A DNA stretch of 36,855 nt from a virus. The stretch spans positions 1-36,855 of IMG/VR virus record IMGVR_UViG_3300035698_000419; one strand, 5' to 3'. How positions within the stretch are numbered: position 1 is the first letter of the stretch; each line of letters starts with the position of its first letter. Shown one piece after another: positions 2,570 through 20,780 of the stretch. A program made the position numbers and the translations under genes. The notes below the pieces were generated by a model that was not told the origin of the DNA, did not search any database, and saw nothing but the letters and a program-made list of their open reading frames with translations.

Positions 2570-2571
2570 AC

Positions 2572-2592
2572 GTACCACACGTGGTACCTTTG
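2572..2592 (+). promoter_or_regulatory. Putative phage RNA polymerase promoter, copy 1 (or operator)
   Basis: The 16-mer GTACCACACGTGGTAC (2572-2587), then CTTT and G2592. The same layout occurs at 8041 and 19492: 16 conserved bases, four AT-rich bases, then G. This matches T7-type promoter architecture (recognition block, melting block, initiating G). This copy is a perfect dyad (GTACCAC/GTGGTAC around two bases), so a repressor operator is an alternative. If G2592 is +1, the RNA polymerase leader is only 11 nt and begins with the Shine-Dalgarno sequence GAGGAG. Confidence 0.65.
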
Positions 2593-2602
2593 AGGAGATA
2601 AC

Positions 2603-5043
2603 ATGGATCGTATCCAGCGACAGAAAGACCTTGAAGTCACGATGGTGTCCCGTGGTATCGAAAGATACATGGGGGCCATCAAGGAGAATGAAGACAAAGG
2701 CCGTCGCCTTGATAACTCAGCGGAACAGAAGGTGGTCCGCGACATGCTCAACCTGTTCATCCCCGCCGTAGAGGAACACCAGCGGTTGGCCCGCGCTAAA
2801 CTGGTGGAGGCACAGACCAGCGGGCGGCGTCTCTCCGGGTGGGAAATGCCCTTCGCCCTCAGTGACCCTGCGGCGATGGCGTACATCACCATCCGGTGTA
2901 CCCTCAACACACTCAACCCGGCGCGTCAGCTACACACCATCAGCCGGGCGGTGGGCACCGTCGTCAACCAAGAACTGAGGTGGCGGGAACTACGAGAGGC
3001 GGAGAAGGAGCGCGCAAAGACAGCGCCCCCGAACCGGCTCGCGTACCTCAAGAAGACGGTCAAGGCCATCAACCCCAAGTCCCTGAACAAGTGGCTCAAG
3101 AAGATGGACGACGTGGAGACGACCCTGTGGGACAATGAGACGCGCGTTCGGGTCGGCATGGAACTGATTGGTCTGATGTCAGAGTCGTGCGCTGATTACG
3201 TGGACCTCACGTCGTATAAGAAGACGACCAACTACCGCATAACCACGGTGACGTCTATCGCCATCCAGCCAGATGTGGAGGAGATCATTCGGGCGCGCAA
3301 CGCCAACTCCGCTGCGTCGAAGCCGTTTATTCTACCGATGGTTTCACCGCCCACCCCGTGGGTCGTGACGGCTGACGGTGTGACAGGAGGGTATCTCACG
3401 CTCGAAATGCCCCTCGTCAAGCGCGGCATTGACCCACATACCTCGGTCTTGTCTGCGTACGACACGGTGTCCCCGGTGTGTGTCCGTGCGCTCAATGCCA
3501 TCTGTGCCACGGAGTGGAGGATCAACACGCGGGTACTGGACGTGGCAGAGGAGGTTGTGTATGGCGGTCACGCGGACCTGTCCCCTGTCCCGCCAGAACG
3601 GGGGAACTTCGAGCGTGTCAAGGACGCTGAGTGGGACGCCATGCCCCCGACTGAACGCACGGTTGTCCTCGCGAAGCGGCGGCAGAAGTACGACGAGGCA
3701 CACAAGGCTGAGAGCAAGCGCCGCGCGCTGTTCCGTGCCCTTGAGGTGGCGAAAGAGTTTGCGGAGGAGCCAGTGATATACTTCCCCCACAACCTTGACT
3801 TCCGGGGTCGCGCGTACCCCCTGCCGCAAGACCTCAACCCACAGGGTCCAGCCCTTGTCCGCAGTCTGCTGACGTTCGCGAAGGCCAAGCCTCTCGGTTC
3901 GTCTGGCCTGATGTGGCTGGCCTACGCTGCGGCGTCGGCGTACGGGCTGGACAAGGAGTCTCGCACCGCGCAGTCCGATTGGGTGGTAGCGCACCTGAAC
4001 GAGATCAGCACGGTAGCCACAGACCCACTGGGGGCGGGCAGGGAGTTCTTCGTCGCGGCGGACGAGCCGTGGGAATTCCTTCCCGTCGCCTTCGAGTTGG
4101 AGAAGGCGTTCAACTTCCCCGCTGGACCGGAGGCGTACCCCTCGTCCTTGCCAGTCCACGTTGACGGCTCATGTAATGGGCTGCAACACCTGAGTGCGAT
4201 GGGGCTGGACCCTGCCGGTGCGTACGCTACGAACCTGACAGCCGAACCTGTTCGACAGGACATCTATCAGATCGTGGCGGACAAGGTGGACGAGCAAGCT
4301 ACGTTGGACTGGCGGGCTGGTGAGAACTTCGCGGAAGCCACCGTGTGGGCGGGCAACGTCACACGTAAGACCGTGAAGCGTGGTGTCATGACCACCCCGT
4401 ACGGCGTCACGCGTATCGGGATGCGGGACCAGTTGATACAGAACGGGTTCACGAATGACGTGAAGTCCGCCAACTACCTCCGCGACCTGATGCAAGTGGC
4501 TATCAGTGATACGGTGGTCAAGGCGGGTCACATCATGGAGTGGATGCAGGACAACGCGCGTATCCTCGCAGCGGACGACCACCCAGTTGAGTGGACAACC
4601 CCGTCCGGTATGCGCGTTGTCCAGCAGTACCGCAACCCCACGTCCAAGCGCATCACGACGTTGCTTGGCACAGCGGTCATGCTGTCTGCCAACCACGATA
4701 ACGCCACGCTGAAAGCAGGGAAGCAAGGCATCGCCATCGCACCGAACGTGATCCACTCGTTCGACGCGGCACACATGATGCTCACCATCGACCGGGCGTC
4801 ACGCAGCGACCTGTCGTCCTTCGCCGTCATTCATGATAGCTTCGGGTGCCACGCATCAGACGTGAACTACCTCGTTGATGTTCTCCGTGAGGAGTTCGTC
4901 AGCATCTACTCGACCGACTGGTTCACTGCCCTACAAGCAGAGTTCCAAGCCACAGCCGGGCCGAACGTGCGAATGATCCCGCCCCCAAACGGGGTGACTT
5001 TAACATTGAGGAGGTGCGAAACGCAGAGTTCTTCTTCGCCTGA
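2603..5043 (+). CDS. T7-type single-subunit DNA-directed RNA polymerase, C-terminus in the -1 frame
   Basis: Transcribes the phage middle and late genes. Start ATG 2603, with GAGGAG (2592-2597) upstream. Palm motifs match T7 RNAP: motif A DGSCNGLQHLSAMG (metal-binding Asp at residue 521), motif B KTVKRGVMTTPYG (Lys592, Tyr600) and motif C IHDSFG (Asp745). In the start frame the ORF continues to 5143 with an unrelated Ser/Pro/Arg-rich tail that runs into the SSB gene. In the -1 frame the sequence reads RGDFNIEEVRNAEFFFA then TGA (5041-5043), which is the typical T7 RNAP ending; T7 ends in FAFA, a foot important for catalysis. The frames meet at a canonical slippery heptamer, C CCA AAC (4984-4990), inside a C5 run. 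The corrected protein is about 813 residues, versus 883 in T7. Either programmed -1 frameshifting or a missing C in the sequence explains this. Confidence 0.95.
4984..4990 (+). other. Candidate -1 ribosomal slippery heptamer CCCAAAC
   Basis: In the RNA polymerase frame the codons are CCC CCA AAC, so the heptamer has the canonical X XXY YYZ phase. A one-base backward slip re-pairs on CCC AAA and continues CGG GGT GAC into the conserved C-terminus. Downstream, GCGAA (5016-5020) could pair with TTCGC (5035-5039), and GGGGT (4991-4995) with ACCCC (5043-5047); both stems are weak. No Shine-Dalgarno stimulator lies 10-14 bases upstream. A homopolymer error (five C read instead of six) would give the same picture. 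Confidence 0.45.
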
Positions 5044-5097
5044 CCCCAAACTGTCCCTCTCGCCAACCATACCATACACTTCCCGAAAGGATGCTAT

Positions 5098-5733
5098 ATG
5101 TCAAAGACGAAACTTCCCATTCAGGTCACGCCGAAGGGTGTAGCCGCGTTCGCTTGGCTCTATAAGAAAGACGTCAAGTTCGCGAAGAAGGGTGAAGACG
5201 GCAAGCACAAACTGTCCCTTATTATCCCGAAGACGGAACTCGCTGGCTTGCAAGCGGGTATCAACGGCGGTTCGGAACGCATCGGCGGAGAGGACTGGAT
5301 GAAGTCCATCATGGAACTCCATGAAGCCAACGGTGGTGACGCAGCCAACTGTCCCATCAAGGACGGTGACAAGCCTGTTGATAAGAAAGGCAAGCCCAAG
5401 GAGGTGAAGGAAGAATTCGCCGGTACTTGGGAGATCAAGTTCACGTCGGGCTTCATGCCTCAGTTCGTGGACACTCAGAAGAACGACCTCCCGGCCAAGA
5501 TTAAGATCATGTCGGGTGACGAGATCAAGGTCGCCTTCCGACCGAACGTCTACGACGAGGGCTGCAATCTGTACATGAACGCGGTCATGCTCGTCGAGAA
5601 GAACGCATCGGGCGGCGGAGCCAACGCCTTCGGTGACGACGAAGAAGGTTACGTGGCTGACCGAGGCGCTGCCGACTCATTCGGTGACGACGAGGGTGGC
5701 GACGACCAGAAGTCGTCGTCTGGTGATTACTGA
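5098..5733 (+). CDS. Single-stranded DNA-binding protein, T7 gp2.5-like
   Basis: 211 residues, close to T7 gp2.5 (232). It coats ssDNA at the replication fork and coordinates polymerase and helicase through its acidic tail. An OB-fold-like body (residues about 1-165) begins MSKTKLPIQVTPKGVAAFAWLYKKD and includes FRPNVYDEGCNLYMNAVMLVEKN. It is followed by a strongly acidic C-terminal tail with two FGDDE copies and ends SSSGDY, an aromatic terminus as expected for this family. The start is ATG 5098, with GAAAGGA upstream; it lies 54 bases after the corrected RNA polymerase stop. The tail's two FGDDE units are encoded by a 14-base direct repeat (5629 and 5680). Confidence 0.88.
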   Translation: MSKTKLPIQVTPKGVAAFAWLYKKDVKFAKKGEDGKHKLSLIIPKTELAGLQAGINGGSERIGGEDWMKSIMELHEANGGDAANCPIKDGDKPVDKKGKPKEVKEEFAGTWEIKFTSGFMPQFVDTQKNDLPAKIKIMSGDEIKVAFRPNVYDEGCNLYMNAVMLVEKNASGGGANAFGDDEEGYVADRGAADSFGDDEGGDDQKSSSGDY

Positions 5734-5737
5734 GCAT

Positions 5738-6160
5738 GTGAAGAAGACAGGCGGTGAGTGGACAGTAACGATCCCACTCGCCCCTGTCCCTGCTTCACGA
5801 CCACGTGTCAGTCGGTGGGGTACCTATTACCTCAAGACGTACGCCACGTGGAAGAAGGAAGCGGAAGAACTCCTCGGAAGATACAAAGCACGTGCGCCGT
5901 TTGAAGGTGACGTCGTGGTCTACATGGAGTTTGTCTGCAAGCGACCGAAGAAGCTGACCCGGCATTGGCCACGCGGTGACGTTGACAACTTTGTCAAAGC
6001 CGCAGCCGACGCTATCACGAAGGCTGAGTGCGTATGGAAGGACGACGACCAGATCGTTGATCTGCGTTGCGTCAAGAGGTACGCGGGTGTGGACGAGAAG
6101 CCACATACAGCCATCACAATATCGGAGAACGAATATGACAGCAAAACTTGCTCTCAATAA
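5738..6160 (+). CDS. rusA: RusA-type Holliday junction resolvase
   Basis: 140-residue endonuclease of the RusA family, which cuts four-way and branched DNA in pairs. The family's metal-binding acidic residues are visible: GDVDN at about residues 80-84, then WKDDDQI about 20 residues later. The N-terminal strand TIPLAPVPASRPRVS is also typical. It occupies the slot where T7 carries endonuclease I (gp3), so it likely resolves branched replication intermediates before packaging. The start is uncertain: GTG 5738 lies five bases after the SSB stop, GTG 5723 is an alternative, and neither has a strong ribosome binding site, suggesting coupling to the SSB gene. Confidence 0.85.
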   Translation: MKKTGGEWTVTIPLAPVPASRPRVSRWGTYYLKTYATWKKEAEELLGRYKARAPFEGDVVVYMEFVCKRPKKLTRHWPRGDVDNFVKAAADAITKAECVWKDDDQIVDLRCVKRYAGVDEKPHTAITISENEYDSKTCSQ

Positions 6161-6221
6161 TGCAAGAGACAGGCATCATGCAACCAGTCAACATCGAAGG
6201 GAAATAACATGCACATCATGA
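6135..6221 (+). CDS. Possible 28-aa peptide
   Basis: ATG 6135 has GGAGAACGA just upstream and opens a 28-codon frame (starting MTAKLALNNARDRHH) that overlaps both the RusA end and the next start. Basic and His-rich. The ribosome binding site is its only support; it may be a leader peptide or nothing. Confidence 0.25.
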   Translation: MTAKLALNNARDRHHATSQHRREITCTS

Positions 6222-6409
6222 CGCCAGTCTTTGGAACGAACATCGACCACATCATGCGCGACTTCAGCAAGACCATCGAGCGCCTCGACGTACATCAGGA
6301 AGTTCGGGAAGGTCAGGCGGAAGTTGCCGAAGCGGCGGCGGCCCGCTGTCAAGACGACGCCCGTCGGGCTGGCGAGATCAGCGCCAAGCTGAAAGAACTG
6401 ATTGGGTAG
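6209..6409 (+). CDS. Small helical hypothetical protein, 66 aa
   Basis: ATG 6209 has AAGGGA at good spacing. The protein begins MHIMTPVFGTNIDHIMRDF and continues as an amphipathic Ala/Glu/Arg-rich helix (residues about 28-64), probably coiled coil. The TAG (6407-6409) overlaps the GTG start of the primase-helicase by one base. No family recognised; co-expression with replication proteins is certain from the layout, but function is unknown. Confidence 0.6.
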   Translation: MHIMTPVFGTNIDHIMRDFSKTIERLDVHQEVREGQAEVAEAAAARCQDDARRAGEISAKLKELIG

Positions 6410-8031
6410 TGTCTGACTTTCGGGAGACACATCTTCCTTGCCCACTTTGTGGGAGCAGTGACGCATTGTCCGTCTACGACAGCGGCGTACGTCACTGCTT
6501 CTCGTGTGGTGAGAGTCTTCCCCCCGAAGGACAAGAGGACAACACCCCCATGACTCAGCGCGAAACTCCCGACACTCCACTCATTACTGAATTGGAGTTC
6601 ATCCCCCTCAAGGCACGTGGTATCTCACAAGAGACGTGCCAGAAGTACGGCTACGGCGTGGCCGTGGACGATGGGGGCAAGGTGCAGGTCGCACCGTACA
6701 CTGACAACTCAGGGCGCATCGTCGCTCAGAAGGTGCGCGGTCCCGACAAGCGGTTCTACTGGACCGGACTACCGAAGAACGCCCGACTGTTCGGCCAAGG
6801 ACTGGCGCGCACAGAGGGCAAGATGATCGTCGTTACCGAGGGGGAGATTGACGCTCTCTCCTGCTTTGAAGCACTTGGTAAGACGTGGCCGTGCCTCAGC
6901 GTACAGAACGGGGCACAGTCAGCGGTGGCGGCAATCCGCGCACAGCTTGAGTTCCTCAACAGCTACGACAAGATCGTGATCTGCTTTGACTCAGACGAGC
7001 CGGGCCGTGAAGCTACGCAGGAGGTGGTCGAACTGTTCACCCCCGGCAAGGTGGCCATCGCGGACCTCGGCGGGTTCAAGGACGCGAACGATATGTTGCT
7101 GAACGACAGCCCCGCCAGTCTACGCGCTGCTCTCTGGGGTGCCCAAGTGTGGCGACCAGATGGTGTGGTGAACATGGCTGACATGAGGGAACGCGTGGAG
7201 AAACGCCTGACGATGGGTACCCTGTACCCGTGGGACGGCATGAACAAGATGCTGTTCGGCTACCGCCCTGCCGAACTCATTACGTGGACAGCGGGCACCG
7301 GGGTGGGTAAGACCGCCATCGTGTCCGAGGTCGTTCACTCCATGATTAAGCGCGGCGAAAAGACAGGTATCATCTACCTTGAAGAAGGACTCGACCGAGC
7401 AGGTAAGCGGTTCGTTGGGATTGAAATGAACAAGCCCATCCATCTGCCCACCGTAGAGTATTCGGACGACGAGTTCGACAAGGCGTGGGAGGCGACCATC
7501 GGTCAGGGCAACCTGTTTGCTTACGACCACTTCGGCTCACTCGACGAGGATATCCTGCTCAACCGTATCCGGTACATGGTGAAGGGCCTCGGTTGTCAGA
7601 CCGTGATCCTCGACCACATCAGTATGATGGTATCTGGCGCGGACCTCAATGCAGACGAGCGCCGTATGCTCGACCACGTGGCGACGTCCCTCGCCTCACT
7701 GTGTCAGGAAACGGGTGTCACCATCCACATGGTGTGTCACCTGCGGCGACCGGGTGGGTCGTCGGCCAGCCACGAAGAAGGAGGCCGCGTGTCCCTGTCT
7801 CACCTCCGTGGTACGCAAGCTATCGCGCAACTGTCTCATACTGTGATCGCGTGTGAACGTGACCAGCAGGCTGAGGATTTAGCTGAGCGCAACACGACAG
7901 TGATCCGTGTCCTCAAGAACAGGTACGCCGGGCTGACTGGTCCAGCCTGTTCCTTGACGTACGATCATGAAACCGGACGCATCCGAGACGCTGACAGTGG
8001 CGTCGCTGCGATGTCGTCGGAGGACTACTGA
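6409..8031 (+). CDS. DNA primase-helicase, T7 gp4-like
   Basis: 540 residues (T7 gp4 is 566). It unwinds the fork and makes RNA primers. Domains in order: zinc-binding domain with Cys11, Cys14, Cys30 and Cys33 (CPLC, CFSC); TOPRIM primase core with VTEGEIDALS (Glu144) and CFDSDEPGRE (Asp194, Asp196); RecA-like DnaB-family hexameric helicase with Walker A AGTGVGKT (about 295-302), Walker B-type TVILDHISMM, and the ssDNA-binding motif region LSHLRGTQAIAQLSHTVIACERD near the C-terminus. The start is GTG 6409, overlapping the previous stop; full-length homology at the N-terminal zinc finger supports it. An internal ATG at 6550 would give a shorter helicase-only form like T7 gp4B, but lacks an obvious ribosome site. 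Confidence 0.95.
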   Translation: MSDFRETHLPCPLCGSSDALSVYDSGVRHCFSCGESLPPEGQEDNTPMTQRETPDTPLITELEFIPLKARGISQETCQKYGYGVAVDDGGKVQVAPYTDNSGRIVAQKVRGPDKRFYWTGLPKNARLFGQGLARTEGKMIVVTEGEIDALSCFEALGKTWPCLSVQNGAQSAVAAIRAQLEFLNSYDKIVICFDSDEPGREATQEVVELFTPGKVAIADLGGFKDANDMLLNDSPASLRAALWGAQVWRPDGVVNMADMRERVEKRLTMGTLYPWDGMNKMLFGYRPAELITWTAGTGVGKTAIVSEVVHSMIKRGEKTGIIYLEEGLDRAGKRFVGIEMNKPIHLPTVEYSDDEFDKAWEATIGQGNLFAYDHFGSLDEDILLNRIRYMVKGLGCQTVILDHISMMVSGADLNADERRMLDHVATSLASLCQETGVTIHMVCHLRRPGGSSASHEEGGRVSLSHLRGTQAIAQLSHTVIACERDQQAEDLAERNTTVIRVLKNRYAGLTGPACSLTYDHETGRIRDADSGVAAMSSEDY

Positions 8032-8040
8032 TGCCAAAAA

Positions 8041-8061
8041 GTACCACACGTAGCACATATG
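8041..8061 (+). promoter_or_regulatory. Putative phage RNA polymerase promoter, copy 2
   Basis: GTACCACACGTAGCAC (8041-8056), ATAT, then G8061. Thirteen of the 16 bases are identical in all three copies. It lies in the only gap between the primase-helicase and the accessory/DNA polymerase block, exactly 11 bases before the next ATG, as in copy 1. The dyad is imperfect here, which favours direct protein-DNA recognition over an RNA hairpin. Confidence 0.65.
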
Positions 8062-8071
8062 AGGAGACTAT

Positions 8072-8245
8072 ATGACACCGACAGGCTTCAAGCGAGAGAC
8101 CCCGCTGACTGACACCATCACGGCGCTCATGTCAGACGGAGAGAACGACCTTGAGAACGTGCTTGACGAGTTCACCAACTGGCTGATGCTTGGCAATAAC
8201 GTAGACGAAGCGGACGAACACACACGGGAGGCATACAGCTTATGA
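8072..8245 (+). CDS. Acidic mini-protein, 57 aa
   Basis: ATG 8072, preceded by GAGGAG (8061-8066), opens a 57-codon frame ending at TGA 8243-8245, which overlaps the next ATG (ATGA). The protein begins MTPTGFKRETPLTD and is then acidic and helical (SDGENDLENVLDEFTNW, EADEHTREAYSL). It is the first gene after promoter-like copy 2, so it should be strongly expressed. No family recognised. Confidence 0.65.
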   Translation: MTPTGFKRETPLTDTITALMSDGENDLENVLDEFTNWLMLGNNVDEADEHTREAYSL

Positions 8246-8823
8246 ACAGGCGGCCTTACTACAAGGATAACCCCGAGACAAAGCGGAAAGCCAACGCGCA
8301 ACGCCGCACAGTGGACGGAGTGACCCTGTACCCAAGCAACCCCGAGTACCCCGGAGAGAACGACATAAAGTTCCCGAAGGTGTACAAGCAAGGGGGAGCG
8401 CCGCACGTCATTACGCAGACCGTCAACACCACCGTGCGCCCCGGCCAAGCGAAGTTCCGCAAGGCCATCCTCCTGCGTGACCTCCAATGCGTCGTGACAG
8501 GCACCCCGATGTCTGAATACATCTACTCGGAGGGACGCAAGACCAGCCTACTACACGCGGCGCACATCAAGCCGATTACTATGTGTAGTGGAGACGAATA
8601 CTTCGATCTGGACAACGGCCTTACCATGCGCGGTGACATGCACCTCGCCTTCGACAGCGCCCTGTTCACTATCGGAGACGGCGGGCAAATCCTCCCAAGC
8701 CGGTGGATGCAGAAAGACTACCTGCCCCCCGTCATAACCACTGATCTCACTGATGGCCAGCGCGCGTACCTCGCGGGCCACCGTAAGTGGGCAATGAGGA
8801 ACTGGACGCGATGGGCCTTCTAA
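8242..8823 (+). CDS. HNH endonuclease domain protein
   Basis: 193 residues. The C-terminal half carries an HNH-type pattern: AAHIKP (first His), DNGL (Asn) and DMHLAFD (last His), resembling the HNH_2-like nucleases found with restriction systems. The N-terminal 60 residues are basic (RRPYYKDNPETKRKANAQRR) and could contact DNA. Metal-dependent DNA cleavage is inferred from the family. It may be a host-genome degrading nuclease, a homing-type nuclease or a packaging nicking enzyme; the free-standing position before DNA polymerase does not separate these. Start ATG 8242 overlaps the upstream stop. Confidence 0.8.
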   Translation: MNRRPYYKDNPETKRKANAQRRTVDGVTLYPSNPEYPGENDIKFPKVYKQGGAPHVITQTVNTTVRPGQAKFRKAILLRDLQCVVTGTPMSEYIYSEGRKTSLLHAAHIKPITMCSGDEYFDLDNGLTMRGDMHLAFDSALFTIGDGGQILPSRWMQKDYLPPVITTDLTDGQRAYLAGHRKWAMRNWTRWAF

Positions 8824-8993
8824 GTGACATGGCCACGCACGTCATATCGACCCTTGACGAAAAGGGTGGGTACACTACCAAGACGTGCGTGGGCTGCGGC
8901 GATACTTACATTCGCGTAAACACCAAGTGGGTTCCACTATCAGTGTGTCGGCCTTGTCCGACCGCTGCGGAACCGAGGAGTGCCAATGACTGA
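8811..8993 (+). CDS. Small zinc-ribbon protein
   Basis: About 60 residues, with two CxxC knuckles (CVGC and CRPC, about 19 residues apart), forming a likely zinc ribbon. Start ATG 8811 has GAGGA ten bases upstream and overlaps the HNH gene by 13 bases; GTG 8787 and ATG 8829 are alternatives. Its stop overlaps the next start by eight bases. Zinc ribbons of this size often bind DNA, RNA or RNA polymerase; the actual partner is unknown. Confidence 0.6.
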   Translation: MGLLSDMATHVISTLDEKGGYTTKTCVGCGDTYIRVNTKWVPLSVCRPCPTAAEPRSAND

Positions 8994-9516: not shown

Positions 9517-9607
9517 GTCTGTCAACCCGACGAAGAAACCCGGTCCGTCACCACACGTGTCGTTCTTGTGGAACTCCGCCCTACACGAATGGGTGATGCG
9601 CGCATGA
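9401..9607 (+). CDS. Small hypothetical protein, 68 aa
   Basis: ATG 9401 has GAGG at good spacing, and the TGA (9605-9607) overlaps the DNA polymerase ATG. The protein begins MALVTRHQLMKAWNEL and ends SFLWNSALHEWVMRA. It overlaps the 3' end of the HExxH gene by 116 bases, which is long for this genome; a start at ATG 9428 would shorten that slightly. No family recognised. Confidence 0.5.
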   Translation: MALVTRHQLMKAWNELPPNPMLGDEQMEVYFPLHLMSCKSVNPTKKPGPSPHVSFLWNSALHEWVMRA

Positions 9608-11481
9608 GTATCCTCGTAGCAGACATCGAGGCTGACGGCCTCCTGCCTACAGTCGCGATCATTCATCAGATCAGTATCGTTGACGACGACAGCCCTGACG
9701 TGGTTGAAAGCTACAACGACCATAACCCTCTGGCCAACGGCTCCCTTGCCACCGGCATCAAGAGGATGGAGAACGCTGACAAGCTGGTGATGCACCACGG
9801 CATCGGGTACGATCTGCCCGCCCTCAAGATCGTGAAGGGCGTGAACTTGGACTGGCGCAAGGTTATCGACACGCTGGTCCTGTCTCGGCTCGGGAACCCC
9901 TCCCGACCGACAGGTCACTCCCTCAAGGCGTGGGCACCGCTGCTCGGTGAGGACGTTGAGAAGGTGGAGAATGAGGACTGGTCCGTGTGGACTCCGAACA
10001 TGGAGTTCCGCTGCGGCGAGGATTGTCGTCTGACCCACCGCCTCTACACGCGATTGAAACCAATGCTTGACCTCATGCCTGTGGCCGTGGAGATTGAACA
10101 CGCCGTAGCTGAGGAGGTACGGAAGACAATCGCGCGAGGGTTCATGCTCAACGTGGACTACGCCGTTGACCTGTGTGGTCAGCTTATGACTGAACTCGAA
10201 GGCCAAGTAGGCTACCTACGCGACATGTTTGCTCCCATCCTCGTCCCGAAGAAGTCGAGCGAGTTGGCGAAGACACTCAGCGTTGTCAACAAAGCACACG
10301 CCCTGTACGGGCAACTGGACCCCGGTGTTGAATACTGTCCTCTCAAGGTGGAGGAGTTCAACCCCGGCTCTGATATGCAAGTGGCCAAGCGGCTGATCCG
10401 CAAGTACAAGTGGAAGCCCGCCGTGTTTACAGGCACCGGCCTCGCCTCAGTTACGGAAGATATCCTGCGGGAACTACCGTACCCCGAGGCGGAGAAGCTT
10501 GCCGACTACATGCACGTACACAAGATGGTTGAACAGATCAACTCCAAGCCGAAGTCAAACGGCATGGGGGGCGGCTGGCTCCACCACGTGGGTGCGGACA
10601 ATATCGTCCACCCGAACCTCAACCCACTCAAGGCGATCACTGGTCGTCTGTCCTGCTCAGGTCCAAACTTGCAGCAGGTCAGCACTGACAAGCGGATGCG
10701 CGGAGCGTGGATCGCGAGGCCGGGGTACAAGCTGCTCGGCAACGATGCGGAAGGACTGGAACTCCGGTGCTTGGGACACTACCTGCAACCTCACGACGGC
10801 GGCGCGTACATTCGTATGCTGCTCGAAGGGGACAAGTCGAAGGGGACGGACGTTCACTCCGTTGTCATGCGGCTTATCGGTTTCTACGACCGAGACAATA
10901 CCAAACGTGCTGAGTACGGCTGGCTCTACGGGGCTGGTGATGCGAAGCTTGGGCGGATCGCCTTGCAGGATGCGCAGGAGGCTGGACAAGAAATAAGGTA
11001 TGAACATCTTGGGATCACTATTAACGCCAATGGTCGAAGGCCCGCTGACTCTACTGTCGGGAAGGCAATCCGAGAGGCACTTCAAGAAGGACTTGACGGC
11101 CTCGATTTCCTCGCAAATGACGTCAAGGAACTCAGCAAGCGCAACGGGAAGCTTCGGGGCCTCGATGGACGGACACTCTGGTCACGGTCTGACCACTCCG
11201 CCCTCAACCTCATTCTTCAATCGGCTGGTGCAATCCTTGTTAAGAAGGCTTGGACGCTCGTTCCTGATCTTCTTGGGGCGGCTTCACTGGTAGAAGGTGA
11301 CGACTACGCTTGTGTCCTTCAAGTCCATGACGAGTTCCAGTACGAGGTTCGTGAGGAACACATTGACTTAGTAGGTCAGACGATATCCGACGCCATCCAG
11401 CAGGCTGGCGAACAGCTTAACTTTCGATGCCCCCTCGCCGGGGACTACAAGTCCGGCGACACTTGGGCGTCCACACATTAG
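9604..11481 (+). CDS. Family A DNA polymerase with 3'-5' exonuclease, T7 gp5-like
   Basis: 625 residues. Replicative polymerase. The start ATG 9604 is chosen because it gives MSILVADIEADGLL, matching the T7 gp5 N-terminus, and overlaps the previous stop; the frame is open further upstream. The exonuclease domain has Asp7 and Glu9, then HHGIGYDLPAL and EDCRLTHRLY. The polymerase domain has motif A NDAEGLELR (Asp381), motif B KRAEYGWLYGAGD and motif C VHDEFQYEV (Asp576). It is about 80 residues shorter than T7 gp5 (704), and the segment corresponding to the thumb insertion that binds thioredoxin in T7 looks much reduced, so processivity probably does not rely on thioredoxin in the same way. This last point is inference from length and motif spacing. 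Confidence 0.95.
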   Translation: MSILVADIEADGLLPTVAIIHQISIVDDDSPDVVESYNDHNPLANGSLATGIKRMENADKLVMHHGIGYDLPALKIVKGVNLDWRKVIDTLVLSRLGNPSRPTGHSLKAWAPLLGEDVEKVENEDWSVWTPNMEFRCGEDCRLTHRLYTRLKPMLDLMPVAVEIEHAVAEEVRKTIARGFMLNVDYAVDLCGQLMTELEGQVGYLRDMFAPILVPKKSSELAKTLSVVNKAHALYGQLDPGVEYCPLKVEEFNPGSDMQVAKRLIRKYKWKPAVFTGTGLASVTEDILRELPYPEAEKLADYMHVHKMVEQINSKPKSNGMGGGWLHHVGADNIVHPNLNPLKAITGRLSCSGPNLQQVSTDKRMRGAWIARPGYKLLGNDAEGLELRCLGHYLQPHDGGAYIRMLLEGDKSKGTDVHSVVMRLIGFYDRDNTKRAEYGWLYGAGDAKLGRIALQDAQEAGQEIRYEHLGITINANGRRPADSTVGKAIREALQEGLDGLDFLANDVKELSKRNGKLRGLDGRTLWSRSDHSALNLILQSAGAILVKKAWTLVPDLLGAASLVEGDDYACVLQVHDEFQYEVREEHIDLVGQTISDAIQQAGEQLNFRCPLAGDYKSGDTWASTH

Positions 11482-11490
11482 GAGAAAAGT

Positions 11491-13570: not shown

Positions 13571-14103
13571 TCTACGCGATAACCGCCCCTTCCCGAAATA
13601 CGGCCGCGCTCCCTTCACTGAGGACACCGTGTTCAACCCGATGACTGGGCGCACCGCTACCAAGGACGGGAGCCGCTGGTTCAACGACGCGCTCGGTATG
13701 TGGGTGGACGTAGTGCCCGGTGTCTCCTGGGTGGACGTATTTCCCAGTGACGACACTGAGCCTACTCCCGCCGCAGCCAAGGGTGCCCTCAAGGACGACG
13801 CGGGTAAGGCCCCCGTCTACCCAAGGGTTCCTCACGTACTTCCCTCGGGCCATCAAGGAAGTGGCCCGCGTGTCCGCCTTCGGGAAGGACAAGTACAAGG
13901 CGGAGTTCACTGACAAAGGCTTCTTGAAGCTGGCGGCGGTGCGCTACGCAGACGCAGGTGCCCGACACCTACTGGACGAGATCATCGAAGGCACGGTCTA
14001 CAACGTGAACGACGGTGGCGTACGACATGACGCGCAGGTAGCGTGGGATGCACTGGCTCGATTGGAGATAAATCTGATCGAGGAGGAGAAAACGGCCAAG
14101 TAA
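13563..14103 (+). CDS. MazZ-like dATP/dGTP diphosphohydrolase, frame broken near 13810-13821
   Basis: ATG 13563 overlaps the HD gene. The first frame gives an unfamiliar N-terminal segment of about 80 residues ending in DDAGKAP and stops at 13913. The conserved domain continues in the +1 frame: QGFLTYFPRAIKEVARVSAFGKDKYK, RYADAGARHLLDEIIEG, GGVRHDAQVAWDALARLE, to TAA 14101-14103. These are the hallmarks of the phage dATP/dGTP diphosphohydrolase domain (MazG-like all-alpha fold, MazZ relatives), which hydrolyses dNTP to dNMP. The break lies in or just after a C5 run (13810-13814). Removing one C joins the halves into about 179 residues. Sequence error, true mutation or +1 recoding on a proline codon are all possible. 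Confidence 0.75.
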
Positions 14104-14126
14104 CACTGGCCATACAGTATCTAGTT

Positions 14127-14172
14127 GCCCCGGCAGAATAGGCTAACCCCCTGTTCTGTCGGGGCTTTTTTT
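14127..14172 (+). terminator. Strong intrinsic terminator closing the replication/nucleotide block
   Basis: GCCCCG (14127-14132) pairs with CGGGGC (14160-14165), a G-T wobble follows, and CAGAA (14134-14138) pairs with TTCTG (14154-14158). The loop is about 15 bases and seven T follow (14166-14172). This is the cleanest rho-independent terminator in the window and separates the replication genes from the virion genes. Confidence 0.88.
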
Positions 14173-14218
14173 CGTTTCTGCAACCGTACCCTCTTGCCAA
14201 GAGATACGAGGAGAAAAT

Positions 14219-14572
14219 ATGAGTGACTATGAGACTTTCCCCCGGTTCGCCTACGATCTTGTAGACGCGCTGGATGATATGATTAAGTCCCCGGCTGTGC
14301 CTACAACGGCCAACGGGTTCGCAGGGCTGGATGAAGCTGCCCTCCGAAAGCTGGCCTTCACGGCTGGCGCGCGTGAACTGGTAGACACACTGGTCGCATG
14401 GCGCGAGCAGGAGGAGGAGGACCATGAGTACACCGAGCAAGTCGAGGTTGTTGAAGAAGAACGTGTGGCTGACGAAGCCACTGGAATATTCCCCAGACTC
14501 TTTGACACGGCTGGACGAATTCGTGAAATCCTATCACCCCTCCGTATGGCCCCGAATGTGTCTAGAGATTAG
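14219..14572 (+). CDS. Hypothetical protein at the start of the virion block
   Basis: 117 residues from ATG 14219 with GAGGAG upstream. Helical and acidic: MSDYETFPRFAYDLVDALDDMI, AGLDEAALRKLAFTAGARELVDTLVAW, then a Glu-rich stretch. First gene after the terminator at 14127. Its last 49 codons overlap the next gene in another frame, which is unusually long, so the natural C-terminus may be shorter or altered. No family recognised; small proteins of this type often precede the GNAT and portal genes in related phages. Confidence 0.6.
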   Translation: MSDYETFPRFAYDLVDALDDMIKSPAVPTTANGFAGLDEAALRKLAFTAGARELVDTLVAWREQEEEDHEYTEQVEVVEEERVADEATGIFPRLFDTAGRIREILSPLRMAPNVSRD

Positions 14573-14945
14573 CTGGGCGGTGGAGATTGAGCAAGACGGT
14601 GAACTAGAAGCCGTCGTGTGGTTCTCCCCCATCCCTGATACCACAGTGTTAGAGTGCCACTTCGTGGCGCACCCGAGAGTCCGGCATCGCTGGCTCTCAC
14701 GGGAACTATTTGACCTGATTGCCTTGAGCCTCCACGAAGAAGCAGGATGCTCCGCAGTCATAGCTCAGATGGCCACCCCAGTCCTCCCTCGGCTATGTCG
14801 CAAACTCGGGTGGGATGTCTACCCCTTATTTGCGATCCTGAAATTGGAGGACGAAGATGGGCAGCCTATTTGGCGGCGCTCAAGCAGCACCGATAATCCG
14901 AACCCCGATTACCCCCGTGAAGGACGAGACGACCCGGTCGCTTGA
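14424..14945 (+). CDS. GNAT-like acyltransferase-fold phage protein
   Basis: 173 residues. Start ATG 14424 has a strong GAGGAGGAGG upstream. The central part (residues about 45-145) reads like a GNAT fold: EISWAVEIEQDGELEAVVWFSP, LECHFVAHPRVRHRWLSRELFDLIALSLHEEAG, then LPRLCRKLGWDVYP. The acetyl-CoA pyrophosphate loop (Q/RxxGxG/A) is not clear, so it may be a structural or inactive member. T7-like phages of aquatic bacteria often have such a protein a few genes upstream of the portal. It overlaps the following gene by 89 bases. Confidence 0.55.
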   Translation: MSTPSKSRLLKKNVWLTKPLEYSPDSLTRLDEFVKSYHPSVWPRMCLEISWAVEIEQDGELEAVVWFSPIPDTTVLECHFVAHPRVRHRWLSRELFDLIALSLHEEAGCSAVIAQMATPVLPRLCRKLGWDVYPLFAILKLEDEDGQPIWRRSSSTDNPNPDYPREGRDDPVA

Positions 14946-15090
14946 TCCGAACCACGGCGAGGCAGTTGAGAACATCAAGAAGAAGCGAAGCGCCGCAGCC
15001 AAGCGCGCCGGTCGCGATAGCCTACGAACACGCCTGTCTACCCCCATGAGTGGTATTCGACAGGGCGTCTCCATTCAAAAAGGACAGTAA
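14857..15090 (+). CDS. Small pre-portal protein 1 (MGS...GVSI family)
   Basis: 77 residues, ATG 14857 with GGAGG upstream. Begins MGSLFGGAQAAP, has a Pro-rich N-terminal part and a basic middle (KKKRSAAAKRAGRDSLRTRL), and ends RQGVSIQKGQ. The next two genes share the MGS start, the basic Ala/Arg-rich middle and a C-terminal GVSI. Small disordered proteins with this layout are common immediately upstream of portal genes in podoviruses; a role in head assembly is inferred from position. Confidence 0.7.
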   Translation: MGSLFGGAQAAPIIRTPITPVKDETTRSLDPNHGEAVENIKKKRSAAAKRAGRDSLRTRLSTPMSGIRQGVSIQKGQ

Positions 15091-15091
15091 C

Positions 15092-15358
15092 ATGGGAAGT
15101 GTTGTATCATCCGTATTTGGCGGGGGCGGTAAGAAGTCTGGTACCCCTGTACAAGCAGCAGTGAACCCGAACCCTCGTCGGGACAAAGGCGCGAGCACAG
15201 ACGGAACAGCCGCTGCGTCCGACCGCGAACGTAAGGCGGCCACGCGCAAGCGTGTCCTATCCCAGTCTGGTGACACCAACCGTGGCTCCACGTCACGGGC
15301 AGGGCTGAACACGAACATTAACGCGAAACCCACACGCTCCGGCGTGTCGATCTCGTAG
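15092..15358 (+). CDS. Small pre-portal protein 2 (MGS...GVSI family)
   Basis: 88 residues from ATG 15092 (AAAAGGA upstream; the frame is open back to 15050 but this start has the ribosome site). Begins MGSVVSSVFGGGGKKSG, has a basic middle (DRERKAATRKRVLSQ) and ends RSGVSIS. Low complexity, probably disordered. Paralogous by pattern to its two neighbours. Confidence 0.7.
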   Translation: MGSVVSSVFGGGGKKSGTPVQAAVNPNPRRDKGASTDGTAAASDRERKAATRKRVLSQSGDTNRGSTSRAGLNTNINAKPTRSGVSIS

Positions 15359-15367
15359 GAGGACAGA

Positions 15368-15634
15368 ATGGGCAGCCTCAACTTCGACAAGCTACTCGAC
15401 CCGGCTGGGTTGTTCTCCAACGACGACAAGGGTGACGACAAGCCCGCACCGCTTCCGGTCTCTACGCCCAAGGCGGCACAGGTGGACCAAGGTGCGCTTG
15501 ACGCGAAGAACGCTGAGAAGGCCGCTGAGAAGCGCCGCTTACTATCACGCACTGCCACGCAGACGAAGCGTACCGCAGTCAGCGTACGCAGCGAAGACAA
15601 CTCTAATGGACGCGTAGGCGTCTCAATCAGATAG
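15368..15634 (+). CDS. Small pre-portal protein 3 (MGS...GVSI family)
   Basis: 88 residues from ATG 15368 with GGAGGA upstream. Begins MGSLNFDKLLDPAGLF, has an acidic then Lys/Ala/Arg-rich middle (AEKAAEKRRLLSRTATQ) and ends RVGVSIR. Same length as the preceding gene product and the same terminal motif. It lies directly before the portal. Confidence 0.7.
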   Translation: MGSLNFDKLLDPAGLFSNDDKGDDKPAPLPVSTPKAAQVDQGALDAKNAEKAAEKRRLLSRTATQTKRTAVSVRSEDNSNGRVGVSIR

Positions 15635-15641
15635 GTGAAGT

Positions 15642-17159
15642 ATGGCTGTAGGAACACACAAGGCAACCTACGAACGGCGCGCTCAGGTGCGCTCCCAGTT
15701 CTTGCAGCGGGCGCGGCACAACGCGCTGCTCACGATCCCGTCCCTGCTCCCGCTTGAGGGGCACACTGGGTCTTCGCATCTGATTGAACCGTATCAGGGC
15801 ATCGGCTCGATGGGCACCACGCACATGTCCTCACGGATCACAATCGGTCTACTCCCGGCTGGCCGCCCGTACATGCGCCTCGATCTCCCTGCTCAGGTTA
15901 AGATGCAAATGGGCGGCGAGGTTGATGTTAATGGCCAGAAGCAACTTGCGATGGTCGAACAGTTGATCCAGTCCAAGGTGGAAGGTGCCGGTTGGCGCAC
16001 GACCACCCTACAGTCTGTACAGCAGTTGATCGTGGCAGGTAACGTCGTTGAGTTCGTCATGGACGATGGCGCGATCCGACTGTACCGGCTTGACCAGTTT
16101 ACTGTCCGCCGCGACTGGCGCGGACGGTGGGTCGAACTTATCATCCAAGAGAAATTCCCCCGCGACGTGGCCCCTGATGGTGCGCCCGGTGACAACGGGG
16201 ACAGTGAAGAAGAAGTCGAACTGTACACCAAGATTGAGTTGGTGCAAGAGGGCGACACAGAATTCTACCGACGCACCCAGCAGTGGGGTGATGGTTCCCC
16301 CCTCGATAGCCAGACGATCTGGGATATGGAGGAGGTGCCGTACCTCGTACTGCGGTGGATGGCCACCCCCGGCGAAGACTACGGTCGCGCCAAGGTGGAA
16401 GAACATATCGCGGACCTCCGGTCACTCGACGCGCTTGATAAAGCTGCGCTCGAAATGGCGGGCATGGGGTCACGCAACTTCGTAATGGTCCGGCCCGGTG
16501 CCAACGCCTCAAGTATCAAGCGGCGTCTTATGCTCGGCATCAACGGTGACCTTCTGGTTGGCGACCCTGACTCAGTGGAACTCAAGTCCTTTGACAATCA
16601 GGCGGGCTATCAGATCACGGAGACGCAATCAAACAAGCTGCGTACAGGGCTGGCTCAGGCCTTCCTGTTGTCCTCCGCTGGACAGCGCAACGCTGAGCGC
16701 GTCACTGCGACGGAGATCGAACGTGACCTCGCGGAACTGGAAGCTGCCCTCGGCGGCGTGTTCAGTTCACTCGCGCAGGAAATGATGGAGCGCCGCACGA
16801 AAATCCTTATGGGACAGATGCGCGCGAATGAAGAACTCCCGCCGTTTGAAGACGGTCAGTTGGTTCCGGTGATCCTCACGGGTCTGGAAGCACTGTCCCG
16901 AGAGCGTGACGTGAGCCGTGCGATGCAGGCCTCTCAGGTCGTGCAAGCGTTCGGTGAGAGTGCGATGGATGTGGTCAAAGCTGACGTGATCCTCGGACGG
17001 GCGTTCATTGGTCTTGGTTTCCCCGGCGCTATCAACAGCCCCGAGGAGGTCGCACAGATCAGAAACGCGCGCGCACAGCAGGCGCAGCAGCAGTCTATGG
17101 TAGACAAGGTTGCCCCCGGTGTCGCGAAAGAAGCGGTGAAACAAGCAGGAGAGCAATAA
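15642..17159 (+). CDS. Portal (head-tail connector), T7 gp8-like
   Basis: 505 residues (T7 gp8 is 536). Forms the dodecameric ring through which DNA enters and leaves the head. Features: N-terminal helix with basic residues (TYERRAQVRSQFLQRARHNALLTIPSLLP), the Gly-rich SHLIEPYQGIGSMGTTHMSSRITIGLLP, the central LRWMATPGEDYGRAKVEEHIADLRSLD, and the late AQAFLLSSAGQRNAERVTATEIERDLAELEAALGGVFSSLAQE typical of this family. The C-terminal tail is Gln/Ala-rich. Start ATG 15642 with GGTGA upstream; the stop overlaps the next ATG. Confidence 0.93.
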   Translation: MAVGTHKATYERRAQVRSQFLQRARHNALLTIPSLLPLEGHTGSSHLIEPYQGIGSMGTTHMSSRITIGLLPAGRPYMRLDLPAQVKMQMGGEVDVNGQKQLAMVEQLIQSKVEGAGWRTTTLQSVQQLIVAGNVVEFVMDDGAIRLYRLDQFTVRRDWRGRWVELIIQEKFPRDVAPDGAPGDNGDSEEEVELYTKIELVQEGDTEFYRRTQQWGDGSPLDSQTIWDMEEVPYLVLRWMATPGEDYGRAKVEEHIADLRSLDALDKAALEMAGMGSRNFVMVRPGANASSIKRRLMLGINGDLLVGDPDSVELKSFDNQAGYQITETQSNKLRTGLAQAFLLSSAGQRNAERVTATEIERDLAELEAALGGVFSSLAQEMMERRTKILMGQMRANEELPPFEDGQLVPVILTGLEALSRERDVSRAMQASQVVQAFGESAMDVVKADVILGRAFIGLGFPGAINSPEEVAQIRNARAQQAQQQSMVDKVAPGVAKEAVKQAGEQ

Positions 17160-17386
17160 TGGCTGAACTAGTGAATGGCTTCGCCGGTTGGGACAACGGA
17201 AAGTTCAACGAGAAGAATCCGTTCGGTAAAGGCTCTGTAGTGGGCGGGGATAATATCCCGTTCTCACAGGACCGATGGGCAGCGATCAAGGCCGTCAAGG
17301 CCCGCACCGCGACCCCCGAGCAGACACAGTTGGTGATGGACACCGACATTATTATCCAAGAAGCATTGGAACTTAGAGAGGAATAG
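17159..17386 (+). CDS. Small hypothetical protein between portal and scaffold
   Basis: 75 residues from ATG 17159, overlapping the portal TAA. Begins MAELVNGFAGWDNGKFNEKNPFGKG and ends with a helix (TDIIIQEALELREE). The position between portal and scaffold suggests a head-assembly accessory; no family recognised. Confidence 0.65.
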   Translation: MAELVNGFAGWDNGKFNEKNPFGKGSVVGGDNIPFSQDRWAAIKAVKARTATPEQTQLVMDTDIIIQEALELREE

Positions 17387-17390
17387 CCAC

Positions 17391-18266
17391 ATGGCTGAGG
17401 AGAAAGTTACAATCGACGCGAGTACCGTTCAGGGTAGTCAGTCCGCCAACATCGACGGAAGTCTGGCTGAACACGCAGAGGCCGCTGCTAAAGCCGCTGA
17501 CGCCGAAGGCCGCCTGACGGCAGAGACACTTAGCGTCACCCCACAACAGTTCGCGAAATTCTATGACCCCAAAGGAAACGCGTACAACTGGCAGGCCCAC
17601 GCGGTCGAAGCTGATTTTCGGTCCAAGGGTGAGCCAAAGCAGGGCGCTGACGCTGACGCAACGAAGGACGCTGACGCGATCCCTGATGCGGACAACGCCA
17701 CCGAAGGCGAAGTGCAGACTGCCGTGGCCCAAGCTGGCCTCGACTTTGATGCGCTGGGTCAACAGATCGTCAACGAAGGTGACATTGACAAAGAGTCTTA
17801 CGAAGCGCTGGCGAAGATTGGTATCCCGGCTGACGTCGTGGGTGCCTACATCGACGGCATCAAGTCCAGCGCGGAAGGCCAAGTCGCCCTCGTGATGGAA
17901 GCGTTCGGCGGTGACAAGGGCCTCGACGCTGTGAAGGCGTGGACGAAGGACAATTACACCGAGGAAGAAAAGCTTGAGATCGACCAGAAGCTCGCTGACC
18001 CGAACCGTTATCTTGCCACCGTGCAGATGCTCCGGGGCGAAGCTGGCCTCCCGCCGATGTCACATGGTAAGCCGCTGGGTGCGCCAAACAACGCAGGTGG
18101 GGCAGACCCCGCTGCGGAGAAAGGCTACGACACTCAGGCTCAGATGGTCGCGGATATGCGAAACCCCAAGTACCGGACTGACTCCGTATTCCGGCAGGGC
18201 GTGACTGCCAAGGTCGCCGCTTCCCAGTTTGACATGAACCCTCGCGCCCATTCCGGTGGCTTATAA
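17391..18266 (+). CDS. Capsid assembly (scaffolding) protein, T7 gp9-like
   Basis: 291 residues (T7 gp9 is 307). Guides procapsid assembly and leaves before DNA packaging. Very acidic, low-complexity N-terminal and central parts (ADADATKDADAIPDADNA), helical EAFGGDKGLDAVKAWTKDNYTEEEKLEIDQKL, and a C-terminal region with basic residues and LGAPNNAGGADP, which in this family contacts the coat. Start ATG 17391 with GAGAGG upstream. Assigned from position between portal and capsid together with composition. Confidence 0.85.
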   Translation: MAEEKVTIDASTVQGSQSANIDGSLAEHAEAAAKAADAEGRLTAETLSVTPQQFAKFYDPKGNAYNWQAHAVEADFRSKGEPKQGADADATKDADAIPDADNATEGEVQTAVAQAGLDFDALGQQIVNEGDIDKESYEALAKIGIPADVVGAYIDGIKSSAEGQVALVMEAFGGDKGLDAVKAWTKDNYTEEEKLEIDQKLADPNRYLATVQMLRGEAGLPPMSHGKPLGAPNNAGGADPAAEKGYDTQAQMVADMRNPKYRTDSVFRQGVTAKVAASQFDMNPRAHSGGL

Positions 18267-18267
18267 G

Positions 18268-18981
18268 ATGGTGGCGAAAGCCTCCACAAAGAAAAGCAAG
18301 AAGCCCGAACGGACAGCCCAAGACACCTTCCCCCCTGAATGGACAGCCCAACATGCCTTCCCTACCGTGATGATCTCGCGGGACTGGGAGGACGTAGACA
18401 AGCTTAACGACGAGTTGCGTGAAGGCGTCTGGCGTCAACGCGCACTCAACCCTGATGGCCTCTACCGTTCCAATCAGTCTGGTACGTGGCACTCGGACGA
18501 CACCCTATTTGAAACCCTCGGTGAACAGGGGGCGGCACTCCGGTCCATGTTTGGAAAGGCGTTCGTCACTTGGGGGGAACAGCACGGCCTCGATGCGACT
18601 TACGGAGTGAACCTCCGCATGGCAGCGTGGGCTATGGTGTACTCCGACCGAGGTTATGCTGCGGTACACACCCACCCAAACTGTGACGCCAGTGCTGTCT
18701 ACTACGTGGACGACGCAACGGCCAACACGGAAACAATAATGGCAACGGGTGTACCTGTTCGGTCTGGTGACATTGAGTTCATCGACACTCGTACAGGGGG
18801 CCAGCGACAGTCCTCGCTGCTGCGCCTGAACTCCTCGATGATCGTCCCCTTCAAGAGAGGCCGGATGATCGTCTTCCCGTCCTCCCTCCCGCACTATGTG
18901 CATCCCGTAAGGGGGCCGGGTGAACGTATCTCAATAGCGTGCAACTGCACATTCACCTCCAAACCAAAGGCAACAAAATGA
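18268..18981 (+). CDS. 2OG-Fe(II) oxygenase-type protein in the head module
   Basis: 237 residues. Start ATG 18268, just after the scaffold TAA; GTG 18256 is an alternative that overlaps it. Matches the phage/bacterial 2OG-Fe(II) oxygenase group with the pattern HTHPNCDASAVYYVDD (His134, His136), GDIEFIDTR, then GRMIVFPSSLPHYVHPVRG (His209) and GERISIACN, where the Arg would bind 2-oxoglutarate. It would hydroxylate a protein, nucleotide or small molecule using O2 and 2-oxoglutarate; the substrate is unknown. N-terminus is Lys-rich, followed by two near-identical segments (ERTAQDTFP and EWTAQHAFP). Location between scaffold and capsid is notable. Stop overlaps the next start. Confidence 0.8.
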   Translation: MVAKASTKKSKKPERTAQDTFPPEWTAQHAFPTVMISRDWEDVDKLNDELREGVWRQRALNPDGLYRSNQSGTWHSDDTLFETLGEQGAALRSMFGKAFVTWGEQHGLDATYGVNLRMAAWAMVYSDRGYAAVHTHPNCDASAVYYVDDATANTETIMATGVPVRSGDIEFIDTRTGGQRQSSLLRLNSSMIVPFKRGRMIVFPSSLPHYVHPVRGPGERISIACNCTFTSKPKATK

Positions 18982-19484
18982 CAATCACTGGTAACGTAAA
19001 GTTCGTCGGTCAGAAAGACCACGGCGTAGTTCCCGAAGCCGCACTCGTAGAACCGGGCGCGAACGAAGCAGAGGCCGTTCCGGTCACGATGTCGAACATC
19101 GCTAACACTCCCGACTGGACTTATAGCGCCACCGCCGAAGACAATGGCACCGCAGGTATCGTTGATGCCCAGCCGGGCCTGACCTACAGCGGCCCCAGCG
19201 GCGTCGGCTTCCGAGTCAACGTCACGAACTTCGACACCATCGAGCATGCAATTACGCCCCCGGAGGCGACGGACAAGTCAGTCATGGCTGTGTTCAAGAA
19301 CTCCGAAGTGGTCGCGTTTGCTGATGAAGGCTTCGTGACTCAGGTTGCGGAAATCGCAACTGAATTCAATGTTGACACGTACGTCCAGCTTGACGCTGGC
19401 GACGTCCTCCGCGTAGGCGTGGTCTTCAACGGGGAAGCCAACGCTGACCTCGACCTCGCTCCCGGCGAAATCAACATTTCGTAA
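18978..19484 (+). CDS. Beta-rich putative head decoration protein
   Basis: 168 residues from ATG 18978, overlapping the oxygenase stop (ATGA). Almost entirely beta-strand by composition, with few Lys/Arg and many Val/Thr/Asp/Ala. The last 90 residues (from GVGFRVNVTNFDTIEH to LDLAPGEINIS), including YVQLDAGDVLRVGVVFNG, resemble a jelly-roll sandwich of the C1q/TNF-like type often used in virion surface proteins. It lies directly before the capsid gene, so a decoration or spike role is likely, but no family is firmly recognised. Confidence 0.6.
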   Translation: MTITGNVKFVGQKDHGVVPEAALVEPGANEAEAVPVTMSNIANTPDWTYSATAEDNGTAGIVDAQPGLTYSGPSGVGFRVNVTNFDTIEHAITPPEATDKSVMAVFKNSEVVAFADEGFVTQVAEIATEFNVDTYVQLDAGDVLRVGVVFNGEANADLDLAPGEINIS

Positions 19485-19491
19485 TCCAAAG

Positions 19492-19512
19492 GTGCCACGC
19501 GTAGCACTTTTG
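19492..19512 (+). promoter_or_regulatory. Putative phage RNA polymerase promoter, copy 3 (capsid)
   Basis: GTGCCACGCGTAGCAC (19492-19507), TTTT, then G19512. Compared with copy 2 only two A-to-G changes occur in the 16-base block. It opens the 185-base gap before the major capsid gene, exactly where T7 has its strongest late promoter. A transcript from G19512 would have a 158-nt leader with a GC-rich hairpin near its 5' end. Confidence 0.65.
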
Positions 19513-19543: not shown

Positions 19544-19669
19544 ATTCTCAACTATCGTAAGGCGTTTGACCCACTCGACCCGCTGCGGCGGACAATCTAG
19601 CTGGACAATCAAATCAACCGGAGACGCGTTGTGTTCATACCATAACCTCTACGATAAGGAGAAAGCCAA

Positions 19670-20766: not shown

Positions 20767-20780
20767 CATAAGGAACCGAA

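Follow-up and report, generated by a model that had tools for sequence, protein, structure and literature searches.

Candidate promoters of a T7-type RNA polymerase in an uncultured integrase-bearing phage, and their dyad symmetry

The DNA of IMG/VR record IMGVR_UViG_3300035698_000419, analysed here over its full length of 36,855 nucleotides (the window), represents most of a T7-like phage with all genes on the plus strand. It contains three copies of a short intergenic motif (Table 1), which very probably serve as cognate promoters for the single-subunit, T7-type RNA polymerase (RNAP) that the phage itself encodes. A preliminary description, made from the letters of the window, had suggested this role for copies standing before the RNAP gene, the DNA polymerase block and the capsid gene. 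Comparison with related phages lends the suggestion strong support, as far as sequences can speak: the relatives have motifs of their own, places are shared, the copies of two relatives have changed in concert, and promoters have been mapped in the phage LUZ100.

The motif GTRCCACRCGTRGYAC-NTWT-G is present in exactly three copies, at 2572, 8041 and 19492, all on the plus strand and nowhere else in the window, and the sequences listed in the preliminary description were recovered at these positions. Each is followed by four mostly AT bases (CTTT, ATAT, TTTT) and then G, as had been noted. A scan of the window with GTRCCACRCGTRGYACNTWTG gave three forward matches and no reverse ones, and 200 shuffles gave none. 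When up to three mismatches were allowed, five matches were obtained, namely the three sites and the reverse reading of two of them, against a mean of 1.1 and never five in 100 dinucleotide shuffles. The preliminary description had also advised a motif scan of the whole genome. With a weight matrix built from the three sites, such a scan returned only these plus-strand copies, which score 30-31 bits compared with 9.3 bits for the next plus-strand site; on the minus strand the best score was about 12 bits, the sites' own reverse readings excluded.

Gaps between genes make up 675 of 36,626 bases (1.8%), and all three sites lie wholly inside them, in agreement with the earlier claim; the chance of three random 16-mers all falling wholly within gaps is about 3e-6. 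The gaps around sites 1 and 2 are almost wholly taken up by the sites. Motifs were sought in the window and its relatives by pairwise comparison of the gaps only, since coding repeats swamp a whole-sequence search, and among the true gaps of the window no other repeated motif was found. A non-random, same-strand, intergenic motif argues for promoters, all the more because a phage with such an RNAP needs one and this is the only repeated motif in the gaps. GAGGAG, a Shine-Dalgarno sequence, begins with the predicted start G at both site 1 and site 2; as this G lies 11 nt before ATG, the predicted leaders are 11 nt long (GAGGAGATAAC, then ATG 2603, and GAGGAGACTAT, then ATG 8072). Site 3 has no ribosome-binding site.

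An IMG/VR scan for the exact motif with its start region gave 67 matches, which is about the number expected by chance, and no matching locus encodes a relative of any window protein. Similarly, the window motif was found in the relatives, with up to three mismatches, at background level only, because the motif changes with the phage. The relative G010, a complete genome of 46,193 bases that carries a short direct repeat at its termini, is syntenic with the window and shares 51% identity in RNAP and 79% in the capsid protein. G010 has its own motif family with the consensus AAATCGGTCACGCGTGACCGATTTG in about ten copies (1372, 2346, 2531, 3341, 3366, 4226, 5371, 6968, 10753 and 25197), of which the copy at 10753 lies in the gap between the genes of RNAP and the single-stranded DNA-binding protein (SSB), and the copy at 25197 lies before the capsid gene in the place orthologous to site 3. 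The CACRCGT core is identical in G010 and the window and lies at an equal distance (9 nt) from the start base; the differences between the motifs are mainly at -9 to -5. The sites of both phages can be arranged on a common axis with AAA 10-12 positions to the left, CACR/CGTR at the axis (slash) and T-rich bases 10-12 positions to the right; in the window sites, G follows 13 positions right of the axis. The shared core, spacing and pre-capsid place again point to promoters. Many replication and capsid neighbours of the RNAP gene are 58-79% identical between the two phages, and at 51% the RNAP seems to evolve faster than these neighbouring genes.

In most of the relatives examined, a motif particular to the phage occurs in several copies, mostly on one strand, next to the RNAP gene or at boundaries shared between the genomes, and its sequence appears to turn over with the polymerase. 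Besides G010, such families were found in six more relatives (G001, G017, G015, G033, G003 and G028; coordinates for G003, G015, G017 and G033 refer to the reverse complement of the stored contig). G001 contains five copies of GGGGGTARAGCCCCC-TATG, including one before the RNAP gene, one just after it and one before the homolog of open reading frame (ORF) 14219. The five copies of CCCAAAAnGnnCCCTAAGCC in G017 likewise include one just after RNAP and one before the 14219 homolog. In G015, with an RNAP 77% identical to the G017 enzyme, CCCAAAAnnnCCCCTCTGCC occupies the corresponding places; this is the same element with all copies altered in step (CCCTAAGCC versus CCCTCTGCC), which is the mark of one trans-acting reader. 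About eleven copies of ACnnGTCCACnnGTGGAC were found in G033, among them copies directly behind the RNAP gene and ahead of the SSB and DNA polymerase genes. TAAAACACCCACAATTGCTATGA stands just before and just after RNAP in G003, and TACAGTGACAACGTAAC just after RNAP and three times upstream in G028. No reverse copies of the phage's own motif were found in G001, G015, G017 or G028. Both the presence of such motifs beside RNAP genes and the concerted change in G015 and G017 favour the promoter reading.

The RNAP itself is consistent with this picture. Among the relatives, the stretch of the protein bounded by the conserved TLLG and IAPNVIHSFDAAH is highly divergent; it aligns with the specificity-loop region of T7 RNAP, and its divergence fits promoter turnover. 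The preliminary description had seen in the sites a T7-like layout with a non-T7 sequence. The layout stands, and the dissimilarity was overstated: with +1 set on the G, positions -13 to -11 of sites 2 and 3 read ACG or GCG and positions -7 to -5 read CAC, in common with the T7 promoter (TAATACGACTCACTATAG; PMC3950665). CAC belongs to the conserved core of T7, T3, SP6 and K11 promoters (PMC13029058), and its retention at two sites is a further argument for promoters. Site 1 has TAC at -7 to -5, the relatives vary, and the Syn5 promoter also does without a CAC core.

The Pseudomonas phage LUZ100 (OP329100), a temperate-type T7-like phage, provides an experimental map: its transcript starts were determined by ONT-cappable-seq, yielding promoters phi1-phi8 (PMC10134795). 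The RNAP and capsid protein of LUZ100 are among the best matches to window proteins in the phage collection. According to its record, phi1 is directly upstream of RNAP, phi2 and phi3 precede SSB, and phi7 precedes the capsid region; thus, sites 1 and 3 occupy the places of mapped phage promoters in a relative, which supports their being promoters as well. The promoter motif extracted from LUZ100 is AATTACCACACAGTYTTGGA. In LUZ100 (L134), a second repeat, ACTATCCACYAGCGCATAGG, is distinct from the mapped promoters and is located mostly at gene ends, in some cases near annotated terminators (371, 572, 3934, 3990, 6684, 6960, 11564, 22145 and other positions).

It can be proposed that the RNAP reads a recognition block from about -20 to -5, melts the four AT-rich bases from -4 to -1 and takes the G as its first base. 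Host polymerase entering from the left, from a part missing from the contig, would make the first RNAP, which would then amplify its own gene from site 1, drive the DNA-replication block from site 2 and drive the capsid gene from site 3. The position of site 1 directly upstream of the RNAP gene makes a self-feeding loop of the LUZ100 type likely. The preliminary description had also presented the loop as a departure from T7, which is not known to have a phage promoter directly before gene 1. A promoter in this position is not new, since phi1 already precedes the RNAP gene of LUZ100, where transcription of the polymerase's own gene by RNAP has been proposed (PMC10134795).

Several observations weigh against the promoter reading. 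Only one of the three window places, the pre-capsid one, is filled in G010, where the places before RNAP and before 8072 are empty; the earlier expectation that the motif would precede the same genes in relatives was therefore borne out in part, with sites shortly before RNAP also present in G001, G003 and LUZ100, and no motif copy found at the pre-8072 place in the other relatives examined. Conversely, the RNAP-SSB place, used by most relatives including G010, is empty in the window. G is found at +1 in only four of the ten G010 copies, and the G010 sites are so symmetric that their direction is ambiguous. The G033 copies lack a clear AT-rich box. No family could be settled in G024, where a two-copy palindrome TTGACCGSSCGGTCAGCT and CACCCAAANTGNCCNTATGGG, resembling the G017/G001 motif, were seen, and no clear promoter family was found in G034, G029, G012, G014, G025 or G004. 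Finally, the left arm and the AAA at about -22 to -24 are conserved as well as the right half, outside a T7-type footprint.

The last point concerns a dyad symmetry that the preliminary description overlooked and that a plain T7 promoter does not explain. The symmetry extends past the T7 footprint in the form AAAnnnnCACR/CGTRnnnnTTTG and is strong in G010; at site 1, inverted arms of 7+7 bp flank a central AC. Symmetric pairs in the consensus number 8 of 13 in the window (shuffle P 0.002), 12 of 13 in G010 (P < 5e-5) and 10 of 13 in G033 (P 1e-4). In G001 the symmetry is short, and none is visible by eye in G017, G015, G003, G028 and LUZ100; judging by this absence, it is a trait of this clade and does not belong to the general mechanism. 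A change in one arm is matched by a compensating change in the other in none of 37 cases in G010 and 2 of 42 in G033. Single-stranded site 2 showed no fold, and the folding of sites 1 and 3 barely exceeded that of shuffled sequences. Uncompensated changes and the lack of folding at site 2 argue that the DNA is recognised in double-stranded form, with each half read separately, and not as a hairpin.

Recognition by the RNAP leaves the symmetry unexplained, and the DNA of the sites may have a second, symmetric use. Hypothetically, the symmetry could be accounted for by a dimeric regulator that binds there or by promoters that fire both ways. In this clade, the promoters would then have become twofold-symmetric over 24-26 bp since each site is shared by two readers, namely the monomeric RNAP and either a dimeric regulator of the phage or another RNAP of opposite orientation, with selection acting on the symmetry too. 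We regard this refinement, which is compatible with the promoter reading, as possible but rather doubtful. The left AAA and arm are conserved in step with the right side in the window and G010, the mirrored start position has G in 5 of 10 G010 sites as read from the alignment, and the authors of the LUZ100 study observed antisense RNA and proposed MarR control of phi1 (PMC10134795). At the same time, no regulator was identified among the small ORFs of the window or those early ORFs of G010 that were scanned, the recognised genes all point in the same direction, and in the window only site 3 has the mirrored G. If there are indeed two readers, one protein could silence every phage promoter at once in the lysogen, and it must co-evolve with the promoter specificity of the polymerase.

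A rival explanation would make the sites operators of a dimeric phage regulator such as an immunity repressor, acting at the short gaps or as road-blocks in them like the stoperators of mycobacteriophage L5, the RNAP promoters being something else. Several dyad-symmetric copies, with the pair counts given above, would suit the site of a dimer, the integrase suggests a temperate phage, and many lineage-specific copies would agree with diverging immunity. Stoperators of L5 are asymmetric. This explanation is unlikely: no DNA-binding regulator was recognised in the ORFs named above, although part of the genome is absent from the window and a small repressor could escape recognition; the motifs of G017, G015, G003, G028 and LUZ100 are non-palindromic at the same kinds of place, those of LUZ100 being mapped promoters; and no other repeated motif would be left as the RNAP promoter.

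The continuation of sites 1 and 2 straight into GAGGAG could mean that the sites are host sigma-70 promoters or translational leader elements kept for the ribosome-binding site. This is very improbable, since site 3 has no such sequence and lies 158 nt from the start codon, and no -35/-10 match was found at the sites, with window matches at chance level (5 found, 6.3 expected). Hairpin promoters of the N4 virion RNA polymerase kind, extruded from supercoiled DNA, have an axis-to-start spacing similar to the 12-13 nt measured here, but they were rejected as the least credible candidate in view of the uncompensated arm changes, the poor folding and the T7-type, non-virion nature of the polymerase.

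Table 1. Predicted promoter sites and other features of the window
Feature	Position	Strand	Remarks
Promoter site 1 (predicted)	2572..2592	+	GTACCACACGTGGTAC-CTTT-G; predicted +1 = G2592; 33-nt gap before RNAP gene
Promoter site 2 (predicted)	8041..8061	+	GTACCACACGTAGCAC-ATAT-G; predicted +1 = G8061; 40-nt gap between primase/helicase and the block that leads to DNA polymerase
Promoter site 3 (predicted)	19492..19512	+	GTGCCACGCGTAGCAC-TTTT-G; predicted +1 = G19512; 158 nt before capsid ATG
Left AAA flank	2568..2570	.	Mirrored by downstream TTT; offset 10-12 from axis, same at sites 2 and 3 and in G010
Tyrosine integrase gene	958..1804	+	Apparent frameshift near 1500-1560
Single-subunit RNA polymerase gene	2603..5042	+	phrog_414 E 6e-186; T7 RNAP structures E 3e-78
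gp2.5-like ssDNA-binding protein (SSB)	5098..5733	+	RNAP-SSB gap without promoter copy here, unlike several relatives
Primase/helicase	6409..8031	+	Upstream of site 2
DNA polymerase	9568..11481	+	Downstream of site 2
Strong intrinsic terminator	14127..14172	+	16-bp stem, run of T; ends replication block; similar stem and T run at same G010 place
Major capsid protein	19670..20692	+	Downstream of site 3
Likely intrinsic terminator after capsid gene	20738..20767	+	GGGGTGTCTTCGGGCATCCCC-ACTTTTT, read from sequence by eye; as in T7 and LUZ100

The window encodes an integrase, a single-subunit RNA polymerase, SSB, a RusA-like resolvase, primase/helicase, DNA polymerase, exonuclease, portal, scaffold, 2OG oxygenase, capsid and tail proteins. 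Compared with the complete G010, it is without several kilobases left of the integrase and without the terminase end, and the motif count covers the remainder. The integrase gene spans two frames: ORF 958-1842 is followed by C-terminal motifs (HTCASRLVQGG..GHSSMDMTQRYAHL) in ORF 1553-1804. At the end of the RNAP gene (4930-5042), the last codons RGDFNIEEVRNAEFFFA with the stop at 5042 are off-frame from the main ORF, which runs to about 4996; this is an apparent frameshift, either in the contig or in the phage. In the more distant relatives G034 (L157-L158), G028 (L146) and G029 (L150-L151), the RNAP is encoded by two separate ORFs of 275-324 and 550-565 amino acids, about 0.2-1.5 kb apart, which recalls the two-subunit RNAPII of N4 and could be a naturally split T7-type polymerase.

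A leader element upstream of the capsid gene (about 19560-19669 in the window, and in L081-L103) is loosely conserved in most relatives (AAGGCTTC ... GTCAACCAnnGATAACCAGAG); it had no Rfam match in the window. Capsid genes are interrupted in L100 (15-597), G033 (27449-28070 on the reverse complement) and G024, and the L100 interruption matches an Rfam group I intron family with 71 bits. About nine tandem copies of a non-coding 11-bp unit, ATAATCACAAG, precede the RNAP region of G001 (L117, 18682-18800) and may be origin iterons. Repeated leaders with a ribosome-binding site stand before several genes in G029 (CACAACGGAGAACCAC, L149-L151) and, in palindromic form, before genes in G014 (GCCTGAGGAGGC, L122).

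From an uncultured T7-like lineage of temperate type, the window supplies a specific candidate RNAP-promoter pair that can be put to the test. Together with G010, G033, G001, G015/G017, G003, G028 and LUZ100, it forms a small natural series in which promoter and polymerase appear to change together, usable for learning the recognition code of single-subunit RNAPs and finding orthogonal pairs. The symmetric form of the sites raises the question of how integrase-bearing T7-like phages keep their polymerase silent in the lysogen.

Among known systems, LUZ100 resembles the window in having a multi-copy, same-strand motif before RNAP, SSB and capsid, followed by four mostly AT bases and G, and containing ACCACAC. 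It differs in that its motif is not palindromic, its ACCACAC is 5 nt closer to the start and its RNAP is only 31% identical to that of the window; the ACCACAC resemblance is uncertain because the LUZ100 register leaves no AT-rich bases before the start. Promoters of the T7, T3, SP6 and K11 class (17-23 bp) share with the window sites the AT-rich -4 to -1 region, G at +1 and the CAC of sites 2 and 3, whereas the recognition block of the window is otherwise unlike theirs, reaches to about -24 and is twofold-symmetric. Syn5 (ATTGGGCACCCGTAA) and CD23823 (AATGTATACCCCTATATACAC) promoters, tested in vitro (PMC3950665, PMC12272871), are also non-T7 promoters of single-subunit RNAPs and both happen to contain short inverted repeats, but have other sequences and a shorter symmetry than the window sites. 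The hairpin promoters of N4 virion RNAP have an inverted repeat upstream of the start in common with the window, but arm pairing is not conserved in the window family and the polymerase here is T7-type. The kind of promoter is thus already known from LUZ100, T7 and Syn5, while the sequence family is new to this comparison; its extended twofold symmetry and the predicted start at a ribosome-binding site would make it a variant of known promoters.

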